Positions 55,674 through 59,892 of a stretch of 64,000 bases of DNA are shown piece after piece; within the stretch, counting starts at the first letter, position 1; every line of letters starts with the position of its first letter. The stretch lies in contig NZ_CP077062.1 of assembly GCF_019039255.1 (NCBI RefSeq), forward strand, positions 2,790,001 through 2,854,000, in the 5' to 3' direction. The notes beneath the pieces are model-generated. The model was not told the origin of the DNA. It saw only the letters and a list, made by a program, of their open reading frames with translations, and did no database searches. The translations under genes were made by a program, and so were the position numbers. The stretch is from Nocardioides panacis. Lineage in GTDB: Bacteria; Actinomycetota; Actinomycetes; Propionibacteriales; Nocardioidaceae.

Positions 55674-56429
<756 letters not shown>

Positions 56430-56433
<4 letters not shown>

Positions 56434-57128
56434 GCGCGGTCGCTCCTGGTGTCGGGCCTGGTGTCGGGCATCGTGCCGGTGTAGCCGCGCGCCAGCATCG
56501 CGAGGTGGACCCGCTCGCCGCGCTCGTAGGACCGGATGAACAGGGCGCCCGACGAGCGGGCCAGGACCGGCCAGTGCCAGACGTGGGAGGCCCGGAAGCC
56601 GCGGGACTCGCGCGCGACCTTCATCCGGCCCATCTCGTCGGTGACCACGTCGAGGTAGCGGATCATGAAGCCCATGATCTGCACCAGCAGGTTCGGCACC
56701 CGCAGCCGCTCCAGGCCCGCGAGCAGGTGCCGGGGCTCGGTGGTGGCGGCCAGCGTCAGGCTGGCCAGCACGCCGAGCGTGCCCTTCGCCAGCAGCGCGC
56801 CCGCCGCGGCGAGCCCGGGCTCGCTGACGGGGACCCCGAGGACCTCGACGCGCGGCCCGCTGGCGAGGAACGGCATCAGCACCGCGAACACCACGAACGG
56901 CACCTCGACGACCATCCGCCGCAGGAGGTAGGCCGGCGGGACGTGGCTGACCGCGACCACCGCGACCAGCACCAGCAGGAACCCGGCGTAGGCGGGCCAC
57001 CAGCCCGGGGGGACCGCGACCACGAGCAGCATGAAGCCGAGCAGCGCGAGGACCTTGAGGTGCGCGGGTGCGCGGTGCACCGGCGAGTGGCCGTGGAAGT
57101 GCAGCTTGTGACCGTGCCCCGCGCCCAC
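56430..57128 (-). CDS. cbiQ: CbiQ-type ECF transmembrane protein
   Basis: A 232-residue T-component of the cobalt/nickel ECF transporter, connecting CbiO with CbiM. Several membrane helices and the conserved coupling motif ARESRGFRA plus a second ARGYTG. The N-terminus is His-rich (GHGHKLHFHGHSPVH), which may bind Ni or Co. GTG start, 1 base after the preceding gene. Confidence 0.92.
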
Positions 57129-57129
57129 G

Positions 57130-57474
57130 TCAGGCCCCGCTGTGCTCGGCGTGCTGGCGGGGCCGCTCGTCGGCGGTGCCCCGGCGTCGTACGACGTAGG
57201 TCAGGCCGCCCGCGAGGGTGAGGACCACGACGCAGCCCAGCACGCCGGCGAGGCCCCGGGAGAGCCGCTGGTCGGCGACGCCCGCGGTGCCGTAGCCGGC
57301 CAGCGGGCTGCCGTCGGAGGCGTGCCTGGTCTGGGTGCCGGAGAAGCCCTTGTCCTCGGCGACCCGGTTCAGGCCGTCGGGGCTGCGGGAGGCGTAGAAG
57401 CTGACCACCCCGGCGAGGAGCAGCGCGACGAGCAGGCCGGTGACGACCAGGGCACGCGTGGAGACCTTGCTCAT
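57130..57474 (-). CDS. PDGLE-domain protein (CbiN-like)
   Basis: A 114-residue membrane protein with two helices (VVTGLLVALLLAGVVSFYAS and LAGVLGCVVVLTLAGGLTYV) around an external domain containing SPDGLNRVAEDKGF, the PDGL motif of CbiN/CbiK-like ancillary subunits. It replaces CbiN in the metal-specific part. ATG overlaps the cbiM stop by 4 nt. Confidence 0.88.
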   Translation of the reverse strand: MSKVSTRALVVTGLLVALLLAGVVSFYASRSPDGLNRVAEDKGFSGTQTRHASDGSPLAGYGTAGVADQRLSRGLAGVLGCVVVLTLAGGLTYVVRRRGTADERPRQHAEHSGA

Positions 57475-58166
57475 GCGGCGACCCCCCGGCCGTCGCGGAC
57501 CTCGAGGGTGCGCCTGTCCAGCACCCGCCGGGCACCGTGCACCAGGTCGGGCCGGACCGCGACGATGCTGCCGACCGCCAGGCCGGTGATCACGGCCTCG
57601 CCCACGCCGATCAGCACGTGCCAGCCGACCATCGCGGTGGCCAGGGCGCCGAGCGGGATCGGGGCCTGGCCGCCCACGGCGTACAGGCCGACGAAGCAGA
57701 GCGCAGCGGCCGGGACCGAGACCAGGGCGCTGACGGCGGCGGCCGGCGCGACCATCGACAGCCGCTTGGGCAGCGCCGCCTGGAGCAGCCGGAAGACGAG
57801 GTAGCCGACCACCACGGTGACCAGGCCCATCAGGTCGATGTTGGTGCCCAGCGCGGTGATGCCGCCGTCGGCGAACAGCAGCGCCTGGACCAGGAAGACC
57901 ACGCTCATGCAGAGCAGCCCGGTGAACGGTCCGACCAGGATCGCGGCCAGCGCCCCGCCGAGCAGGTGCCCGCTGGTGCCGGCGCCGACCGGGAAGTTCA
58001 GCATCTGGGTGGCGAACACGAAGGTGGCGACCAGGCCGGCCAGCGGCGCGGTCCTGTCGTCGAGCTCGTGCCGCGCGCCGCGCAGCGCCACTCCGACGGC
58101 GACGACCGCCACCGCGCCAGTCGCGACCGAGGTCGGTGCGTCGAGGAACCCGTCCGGGACGTGCAT
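57471..58166 (-). CDS. cbiM: CbiM-type substrate-specific ECF component
   Basis: A 231-residue, six- to seven-helix protein that binds Ni2+ or Co2+. The N-terminus MHVPDGFLDAP carries the metal-binding Met-His and PDG; the conserved LNFPVGAGTSGHLLGGALAA follows. First gene of cbiM-cbiN-like-cbiQ-cbiO. CAAGGAG precedes the ATG. The promoter (TAACGT at 58232-58237, minus) is next to a Nur-like operator, so nickel is the more likely ion. Confidence 0.93.
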   Translation of the reverse strand: MHVPDGFLDAPTSVATGAVAVVAVGVALRGARHELDDRTAPLAGLVATFVFATQMLNFPVGAGTSGHLLGGALAAILVGPFTGLLCMSVVFLVQALLFADGGITALGTNIDLMGLVTVVVGYLVFRLLQAALPKRLSMVAPAAAVSALVSVPAAALCFVGLYAVGGQAPIPLGALATAMVGWHVLIGVGEAVITGLAVGSIVAVRPDLVHGARRVLDRRTLEVRDGRGVAA

Positions 58167-58290: not shown

Positions 58291-58768
58291 GTGAGCGACT
58301 CCCGCCTCTCCCCCGGTGACACCGCACCGGACTTCACGCTGACCTCGGACACCGGCGAGGAGGTGACGCTGTCCCACCTGCGCGGCCGCAAGGTGATCGT
58401 GTACTTCTACCCGGCCGCGATGACCCCCGGGTGCACCACCCAGGCCTGCGACTTCACCGACTCCCTCGACGCGCTCCAGGCGTCCGGCTACGAGGTGCTC
58501 GGCGTCTCCCCCCGACCAGCCGGCCAAGCTCGCGAAGTTCCGGGAGCGCGACTCGCTGACGATCACGCTGCTCTCCGACCCCGACAAGGAGACGCTGACG
58601 GCGTACGGCGCGTACGGCGAGAAGAAGCTCTACGGGAAGGTCGTCCAGGGCGTCATCCGCTCGACGGTCGTCGTCGACGAGACCGGGGTGGTCGAGCTGG
58701 CGCAGTACAACGTCAAGGCCACCGGCCACGTCGCCAAGCTGCGGCGCGACCTCGGCCTCGCCTCCTAG
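58291..58768 (+). pseudogene. bcp: Bcp-type thiol peroxidase, frameshifted in a C run
   Basis: Atypical 2-Cys peroxiredoxin (bacterioferritin comigratory protein). The first frame, from GTG 58291, gives SPGDTAPDFTLTSDTGEEVT and the active site YPAAMTPGCTTQACDFTDSL (peroxidatic Cys, resolving Cys five later). In six C at 58508-58513 the frame breaks after VLGVSP; with five C it continues DQPAKLAKFRERDSLTITLL and ends LGLAS at 58768, the normal length of about 158. The uncorrected frame runs through the next tRNA. GGAAGGG precedes the GTG. Confidence 0.88.
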
Positions 58769-58780
58769 ACTCTGGCCTGC

Positions 58781-58853
58781 GCGCCCGTAGCCCAATGGCA
58801 GAGGCAGTCGGTTTAGGTCCGGCCCAGTGTGAGTTCGAATCTCATCGGGCGCA
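58781..58853 (+). tRNA. Class I tRNA-like gene with UAG anticodon (Leu-like)
   Basis: Acceptor arms GCGCCCG and CGGGCGC, D-arm GCC/GGC with loop containing AATGGCAGA, anticodon stem GTCGG/CCGGC and loop TTTAGGT (anticodon TAG), variable region of only 5 bases (CCAGT), T-stem GTGAG/CTCAT, T-loop TTCGAAT, discriminator A. UAG decodes CUA leucine codons, but bacterial tRNA-Leu have a long variable arm, which is absent here. The D-arm (3 pairs, AATGGCAGA) resembles tRNA-Leu. CCA is not encoded. It lies 12 bases after the bcp stop. Charging identity is unknown. Confidence 0.8.
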
Positions 58854-58877
58854 CCCCCACCCGTCCCGGGACCGGTC

Positions 58878-59270
58878 ATGAGCTCGGTGGAGATCGTGCC
58901 GTTCGAGGAATGGCACGCCGCGGGCATCGCCCGGCTGAGCACCGCGGTGCAGTGGCCGTCGCTGGCCGACCCGGCGACCGTGCGGGCGGTCTGCACGGCC
59001 CCGGGCTCCGCGGCGTACGTCGCGCTCGTCGACGACGCGGTCGTCGGCTGGGCGCAGGCCCTCGGCGACGGGGTGCTGCAGTCGCACCTCAGCTTCGTCG
59101 CCGTGCACCCCGCCCACCGGCGCCGGGGCATCGCCCGGCTGCTCACGGTCGCGACGTTCCAGGCCACCCACACCGTGCGGATGGACCTGATCACCGACGG
59201 CGCGGAGGCGTTCTACGAGGCCTTCGAGCACCGGCGGATGCACGGGTTCCGGATCTACCCCGGGGCGTGA
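58878..59270 (+). CDS. GNAT-family N-acetyltransferase
   Basis: A 130-residue GNAT protein. The acetyl-CoA pocket is in SFVAVHPAHRRRGIARLLTV (motif A, RRRGIA), followed by FYEAFEHRRMHGFRIYP. Substrate unknown. The ATG lies 25 bases after the tRNA; no good ribosome site. Convergent with rdgB, 1 base between stops. Confidence 0.85.
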   Translation: MSSVEIVPFEEWHAAGIARLSTAVQWPSLADPATVRAVCTAPGSAAYVALVDDAVVGWAQALGDGVLQSHLSFVAVHPAHRRRGIARLLTVATFQATHTVRMDLITDGAEAFYEAFEHRRMHGFRIYPGA

Positions 59271-59271
59271 G

Positions 59272-59892
59272 TCACAGCCCGGTGAGCACGTCCGCGACGA
59301 CGGGGGCGATCTCGCGCAGCGCCTTGCCGCGGTGGGAGATCGCGTCCTTCTCCTCGACCGACAGCTCGGCCGACGTGCGCTCGCCGCCGTCCGCGACGAA
59401 CAGCACGTCGTAGCCGAACCCGCCGCTCCCCCGCAGCTCGCGGATGATCCGGCCGGGCATCTCGCCCAGCACGACGTGCTCGGCGGTGCCGCCCGCGCCC
59501 ACCGGGTAGGCGAAGGCGACCGCGGCGGTGAAGTGCGCGGTCCGCCGCTCGTCGGGCACGTCGGCGAGCTGCTCGAGCAGCAGCCGGTTGTTCGCGCCGT
59601 CGTCCTTGGCGACCCCGGCCCACCGGGCCGACAGCACGCCCGGCATCCCGTTCAGCTCGTCGACGCACAGCCCGCTGTCGTCGGCCAGCGACGGCAGACC
59701 CGTGGCCGCGACCGCCGCGCGCGCCTTGAGCAGCGCGTTGCCGGCGAACGTGTTCTCGGTCTCCGCCGGCTCGTCGTACGGCGTCACGTCGTCGAGGCCG
59801 AGCACCTCCACGTCGGGGACGTACTCCACGAGGATGCGGCGCATCTCGACCAGCTTCTTGGGGTTGCGGGACGCGAGGAAGACCTGGGTCAT
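59272..59892 (-). CDS. rdgB: XTP/dITP pyrophosphatase
   Basis: A 206-residue house-cleaning enzyme that hydrolyses XTP, dITP and ITP. The N-terminal [13 protein letters not shown] binds the nucleotide; [18 protein letters not shown] and [20 protein letters not shown] contain the metal and base contacts; [12 protein letters not shown] and SHRGKALRE end the family set. ATG overlaps the rph stop by 4 nt, a conserved pairing. Confidence 0.96.

Follow-up and report, generated by a model that had tools for sequence, protein, structure and literature searches.

The window analyzed here is a stretch of 64,000 nucleotides of the Nocardioides panacis genome (contig NZ_CP077062.1, positions 2,790,001 to 2,854,000 of the forward strand), and all coordinates in Table 1 are counted from its first letter. 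A tRNA gene with the anticodon UAG begins 12 bases past the stop codon of bcp, and 24 bases separate its end from an acetyltransferase-like frame. Genes rdgB and rph come next, on the opposite strand. The names bcp, rdgB, and rph were given by recognition; these genes have tblastn matches in relatives. The bcp frame breaks inside a run of C residues (58508-58513) and the copy in a relative (genome G006, locus L032) is intact, which leaves a frameshift or a fault of the assembly as the cause. An apparent cobalt transporter cluster (CbiM, CbiN, CbiQ, and CbiO, recognized by eye) lies at 55674-58166 on the minus strand.

Table 1. Features of the bcp-tRNA region, in window coordinates
Feature	Position	Strand	Remarks
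bcp, peroxiredoxin-like, upstream neighbor	58291..58768	+	Start codon by eye
tRNA-Leu(UAG), class I	58781..58853	+	73 nt, without encoded CCA; ARAGORN, Rfam, and direct reading
D-arm, three pairs GCC/GGC; loop with A14 A15 and G18 G19	58790..58805	+	Numbering by hand
Anticodon UAG, followed by G37	58814..58816	+	Position 34 from ARAGORN; sequence reading
Variable region CCAGU, 5 nt; U48 can pair with A15	58824..58828	+	
Discriminator A73	58853..58853	+	
Acetyltransferase-like frame, 130 aa, directly downstream	58878..59270	+	Label by eye
rdgB-like gene, neighbor in several relatives too	59272..59892	-	Start approximate

Direct reading of the UAG tRNA gave a complete cloverleaf. The acceptor stem (GCGCCCG/CGGGCGC) has seven pairs, the anticodon stem (GUCGG/CCGGC) closes the loop UUUAGGU, and the T-arm (GUGAG-UUCGAAU-CUCAU) has the normal form. 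ARAGORN called a tRNA-Leu(tag) at 58781-58855, and Rfam family RF00005, which has a gathering score of 29, matched 58781-58853 over model positions 1-71 of 71 with 50.5 bits (E 7.5e-8), the lowest score among the six tRNAs in the window. The preliminary description, made from the letters of the window, had proposed a cloverleaf with a UAG anticodon, a 5-nucleotide variable region, a three-pair D-stem, and A73, and all of these features were confirmed by the reading, ARAGORN, and RF00005. Unconstrained folding (z-score -2.31; 4 of 200 shuffles folded equally well) recovered the acceptor, anticodon, and T helices but gave other pairings in the D region. Among 126 distinct short UAG sequences, 14 of the 20 cloverleaf pairs had compensatory (double) changes and 99.9% of the cells paired. 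The D-stem helix provides no independent covariation evidence because the search patterns fixed its 3' side. Scans for promoters and terminators returned no match, a result that carries no information, as none was expected from shuffled sequences either.

With 5 nucleotides, the variable region falls short of the 10 or more that mark class II tRNAs. The arrangement of the tRNA is 7/5, not the 8/4 or 9/3 branch with an acceptor of 8 or 9 pairs that characterizes allo-tRNAs. Instead, A9, CCAA before the D-loop, A26, the 5-nucleotide variable region, and A73 place it in a class I leucine tRNA lineage of Actinomycetota, a category defined in the present analysis.

The genome is a single contig of 4.90 Mb that is 99.96% complete. 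It had 46 tRNA family matches, from which 46 distinct tRNAs were read. Five of these are leucine tRNAs: a long Leu(CAG) and Leu(GAG), and a short Leu(UAG), Leu(CAA), and Leu(UAA). Each of the three short tRNAs is the only one found with its anticodon among the 46, and a normal long Leu(UAG) elsewhere in the genome, which the preliminary description had recommended looking for, was not found among them. One LeuRS gene scored above the family cutoff, covering profile positions 2-568 and 606-841 of 843, and Pfam recognized editing, catalytic, and anticodon-binding domains in it; LeuRS-profile matches below the cutoff are probably related synthetases. Leu(GAG) and Leu(CAG) of N. panacis (L050 and L051) each have one apparent surplus base in the C run of the T-arm, possibly a homopolymer error. 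These two tRNAs were excluded from the readings of positions 15 and 73, as the extra base shifts the register. The only tRNA-Gln(UUG) found (L052, C1:60813-60892) has an unusually long variable region, about 10 nucleotides by hand. Matches in 61 Streptomyces phage records covered 80% or more of it, with identities of 80-90%, and the one record that was read is annotated as tRNA-Gln(ttg).

The preliminary description had allowed that correction of the sequence might restore a long arm or that the gene might be missing from all relatives. The identical 5-nucleotide region in relatives argues against the former, and the presence of the short UAG tRNA in all seven genomes of the genus that were searched, N. 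panacis included, against the latter. In the class, 285 of 345 genomes matched a pattern for short leucine tRNAs with the three anticodons UAG, CAA, and UAA; this pattern tolerated one mismatch, and some of the matches are clearly due to chance. A strict short-UAG pattern in a scan of named genomes returned at least 119 stretches, which bore out the mention of similar odd UAG tRNAs in actinobacteria in the preliminary description. Among the 119 matches listed, ARAGORN called Leu(tag) in 118, the remaining one (L098) being broken by a contig end, and a long Leu(UAG) was found in the same stretch in none. The label was Actinomycetota for 116 of the 119 listed, and one was unlabeled; they included 42 Pseudonocardiaceae, 17 Nocardioidaceae, 9 Micromonosporaceae, 5 Acidimicrobiaceae, 4 Ilumatobacteraceae, and 3 Streptomycetaceae, plus others. 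Two listed contigs from metagenome-assembled genomes (L098 and L166) are labeled Thermomicrobiota (Thermomicrobiales) and Acidobacteriota, a result of either transfer or mis-binning.

In a sample of 217 genomes of the phylum, the short UAG tRNA was present in 6 (N. panacis and five members of family f29), the long UAG tRNA in 110 with a strict pattern, and short Leu(UUR) tRNAs in 46. A seventh match to the short pattern, in G204, contained no tRNA according to ARAGORN and is not among these 6. A one-mismatch match on a bacterial chromosome (G472:C4:585812-585852) resembles a short-armed Leu(CAG). Because many actinobacteria and, as described below, many phages carry the same short type, the short-type leucine tRNA is a real and widespread exception, not an oddity of one genome.

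The short and long forms of Leu(UAG) exclude each other. Among 197 genomes of the class scanned with strict patterns, 29 had the short form, 135 the long form, 33 neither, and none both. Under independence about 20 genomes with both forms would be expected; the sampled genomes are related, and the strict long pattern misses some genuine long genes, for example, that of G199. The short-UAG pattern had 30 matches at first; the one in G351 was not counted because its anticodon is UAA. The long-armed tRNA near bcp in G199 (L229) reads as Leu(UAG) and is called Pro(agg) by ARAGORN, likely an annotation error.

The two forms also share a site. Comparison of the locus beside bcp across relatives, another suggestion of the preliminary description, revealed either a short or a long Leu(UAG) there, even inside one genus. 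A set of 60 bcp loci, retrieved through the protein, comprised 17 with the short form, 21 with the long form (including the one that ARAGORN calls Pro(agg)), and 22 with no Leu(UAG) in the fetched flank; the genomes were chosen by hand, some were already known as short or long, and loci L247 and L248 are second bcp copies. For example, among 11 sampled members of genus g200, four (G339, G367, G403, and G432) have the short form and seven the long form. Near bcp in this genus, G339, G367, and G403 carry the short form, and G354, G412, G422, G442, and G461 carry the long form. In genus g10, G472 has the short form and G210 the long form.

Genes for Bcp and Leu(UAG) lay within 2.6 kb of each other in 83 of 177 loci examined, 63 with the short form and 20 with the long form, a ratio that does not represent a frequency because many of the 83 loci were fetched on account of their short form. 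The tRNA was on the bcp strand in 56 of the 63 short loci and 19 of the 20 long loci, and the spacing was at most 300 bases in 45 of 63 and 14 of 20, respectively. On a tree of Bcp from the 83 linked loci, no fewer than 15 switches between the forms were needed, and well-supported branches make 5 of these unavoidable. With shuffled labels 18.0 changes were required, and 20 of 500 shuffles were as low as 15; clustering is barely above chance. The number of type changes is rough because the Bcp tree is weak, with 13 of its 79 inner branches starred.

Short leucine tRNAs are also carried by phages. Viral contigs with a short Leu(UAG) numbered at least 120 stretches. Among the viral matches listed, 118 were Leu(tag) according to ARAGORN, 46 of these had 10 or more other tRNAs in the stretch, and the median G+C was 0.44. 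A blastn search with the tRNA of the window matched 217 phage records, and seven regions were read. Gordonia phage GodonK has short UAG and CAA tRNAs, Streptomyces phage Peebs has the UAG tRNA twice, and the short UAG tRNA is also present in a Felixounavirus of Escherichia coli, an Enterobacter phage, and Lactobacillus phage Bacchae. In an Enterococcus phage a short UAA tRNA is next to a long UAG tRNA. Mycobacterium phage BeanWater (L514) has short CAG, GAG, and CAA leucine tRNAs in a row.

Most of the short phage leucine tRNAs read share with the tRNA of N. panacis the UAGCCCAA...GAGGCA body, a variable region of 5 to 6 nucleotides, and A73. Unlike that tRNA, they sit in phage tRNA arrays and also come with the anticodons CAG, GAG, CAA, and UAA. 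Other bodies are found in the GAG and CAA tRNAs of BeanWater and in one of the two Peebs UAG tRNAs, and the GodonK UAG tRNA and the Enterobacter phage tRNA, as parsed by program, have a 6-nucleotide region without U48. Because phages carry short leucine tRNAs, phage arrays are plausible carriers of this type. Furthermore, phages of hosts with an ordinary LeuRS carry short tRNAs, which suggests that an ordinary LeuRS may accept them.

Leucine identity in E. coli depends on A73, A15-U48, G18G19, and A20a, and the sequence and folding of the long arm do not govern charging, armless variants remaining active, according to the available part of one review (PMC9976931). The UAG tRNA has a leucine anticodon and A73, A15-U48, G18G19, and A20a, the last two by hand numbering. 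In the 126 distinct short UAG sequences, A73 was present in all and A15-U48 in 122, with U48 fixed by the pattern for the loci brought by the named-genome scan. Each of the two features was present in 48 of 48 long UAG tRNAs. Among the viral matches listed, in which U48 was not fixed by the pattern, A73 and U48 occurred together in 117 of 118 short UAG tRNAs. A15-U48 and A73 are insufficient for leucine identity because Arg(ACG) and both Lys tRNAs of N. panacis have them as well.

Codons expected to be read by this tRNA were compared in 220 gene pairs of N. panacis and the relative G002, in which the frequency of CUA was 0.38 per 1,000 aligned codons. The 27 CUA sites of N. panacis faced another leucine codon at 12, CUA at 11 (mostly out-of-frame readings), and a non-leucine codon at 4, a thin test; with the 11 CUA-CUA sites removed, 12 of 16 faced leucine, still few sites. 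In the reverse direction, 27 CUA sites of G002 faced leucine at 20 and other amino acids at 7, with shadow frames still included. The conserved CUA codons (11 of 27) were considered as a bldA-type switch and rejected, as their contexts were mostly Tyr TAC read out of frame, and a codon test on the window alone was set aside for the same fault. Of the earlier suggestion of a CUA-decoding specialist, there remains the ordinary sense that this is the sole tRNA found with a UAG anticodon; CUA is simply rare.

Several alternative explanations have to be weighed. The unconstrained fold missed the D-arm and the assembly may carry homopolymer errors, as illustrated by the frame break of bcp, which could be taken as signs of a pseudogene, a chance hairpin, or an assembly artefact. 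However, conservation of the gene throughout the genomes searched in the genus and in the stretches from named genomes refutes an artefact, the compensatory changes also speak against one, and the probability of such an explanation is minimal. Another alternative is that a class II Leu(UAG) beside bcp shed its long arm without being replaced, possibly in several independent events. The two forms have the site and the anticodon in common, their anticodon loops are similar, and both occur inside genus g200, all of which speak for such a loss. However, over the 45 columns outside the anticodon arm and variable region, the identity of short UAG tRNAs is 0.758 to short UAA tRNAs and 0.637 to long UAG tRNAs (0.718 to short CAA tRNAs, from 4 CAA sequences only). 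Short UAG tRNAs of different families are 0.836 identical among themselves, a single common body. At position 9, all 126 short UAG, all 26 short UAA, and all 4 short CAA sequences have A, and all 48 long UAG sequences have G; the pattern fixed this position only for the long loci of the 197-genome long-UAG scan. Replacement fits better than deletion of the arm because the body is nearer to short Leu(UUR) than to long Leu(UAG) and because position 9 is A rather than G. Loss of the arm in place is therefore unlikely, and these comparisons favor the view that a separate short leucine lineage would have taken over both the UAG job and the site. The earlier idea of a leucine tRNA that lost its arm is half right: a leucine tRNA with a class I body is supported by the identity elements, the sole UAG anticodon found, the exclusion of the long form, and, thinly, the CUA sites, and the loss is the less likely part.

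The tRNA might alternatively be charged with another amino acid, with CUA recoded. Leucine tRNAs do not usually have a class I shape; in some yeast mitochondria, tRNAs with a UAG anticodon have come to serve Thr or Ala, according to the available part of one source (PMC7609411); and non-leucine partners were present at 4 of the 27 N. panacis and 7 of the 27 G002 CUA sites. However, the leucine identity elements are in place, 12 of the 27 N. panacis CUA sites face other leucine codons, and the tRNA interchanges with a normal Leu(UAG) among relatives. Recoding is consequently highly improbable. The preliminary description had also raised a regulatory or amino-acid-donor tRNA outside translation, for which the probability is very low, if slightly higher. 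Nothing in the sequence comparisons gave support to either role. The rarity of CUA would permit a codon-based switch like bldA, which is described as such a switch for UUA in the portion available of another source (PMC12772374), but the tRNA is the sole one found in the genome with a UAG anticodon, and the apparent conservation of CUA is mostly a matter of out-of-frame readings.

Judged from sequence comparisons, the UAG tRNA is very probably a working class I leucine tRNA, charged by LeuRS, at the bcp-linked site of the class II gene of its relatives. As an expressed elongator tRNA, it would decode CUA and, through wobble, probably CUG. Its lineage, that of class I leucine tRNAs found widely among Actinomycetota and phages, would occupy the site. 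The single detected bacterial-type LeuRS is expected to charge the tRNA via A73, A15-U48, and the corner of the D- and T-loops, with no need for the long arm. A more general proposal, that the two structural classes are interchangeable at a fixed site and have changed places on many occasions, with a reservoir in phage tRNA arrays, is tentative, and we consider it somewhat doubtful.

If these proposals are true, the armless form may gain by escaping enzymes that grip the long arm, with mischarging by SerRS and arm-reading toxins and nucleases as examples, and the long-arm rule for bacterial tRNA-Leu would be wrong across a large part of a phylum. The interest of the locus lies in this exception over much of a phylum and in a repeated exchange of forms at one site. 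Nature supplies a large collection of armless leucine tRNAs, and close relatives carry long-armed versions at the matching site, so that the purpose of the arm can be tested directly. This collection also matters for how tRNAs are annotated and how orthogonal tRNAs are designed.

The available part of a 2023 review describes tRNA-Leu as long-armed everywhere except in animal mitochondria (PMC9976931), and tRNA-Leu is placed in class II in the parts available of two further sources (PMC7609411 and PMC4033280). In the partly available literature searched, remarks contrary to the long-arm rule are incidental only. For example, a short-loop tRNA-Leu(TAG) in a tRNA cluster of Mycobacterium mucogenicum is the subject of a one-sentence remark in the accessible text of PMC6582537. 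tRNA-Leu-2, 3, and 5 of Mycobacterium tuberculosis have long loops according to an excerpt of PMC11541572, which suggests that the remaining leucine tRNAs lack them. The accessible portions of PMC6297222, PMC4932002, and PMC12772374 contain nothing on short leucine tRNAs. Among the literature matches listed, no title or start of an abstract presented such tRNAs as a feature of Actinomycetota or phages; subscription journals were largely outside the scope of this search, which is no proof of novelty.

A close comparison is with the class II tRNA-Leu(UAG) of bacteria, which has the same anticodon, G37, A73, A15-U48, and bcp-linked site as the present tRNA. It differs in the sequences of the acceptor and D-stem, in having G9 rather than A9, and in its variable region of 11 to 17 nucleotides instead of 5, lengths that in part reflect the fixed-spacing patterns used to fetch many of the loci. 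The tRNA-Leu(TAG) of M. mucogenicum is like the present tRNA in its UAG anticodon and short variable loop, but, as far as the accessible text goes, it lies in a tRNA cluster and a normal long Leu(TAG) is present elsewhere (PMC6582537), whereas in N. panacis no second Leu(UAG) was found and the gene is linked to bcp. The leucine tRNA of animal mitochondria also lacks the long arm and is charged by LeuRS there, according to the available part of the review (PMC9976931), but in contrast to the present tRNA it belongs to an organelle.
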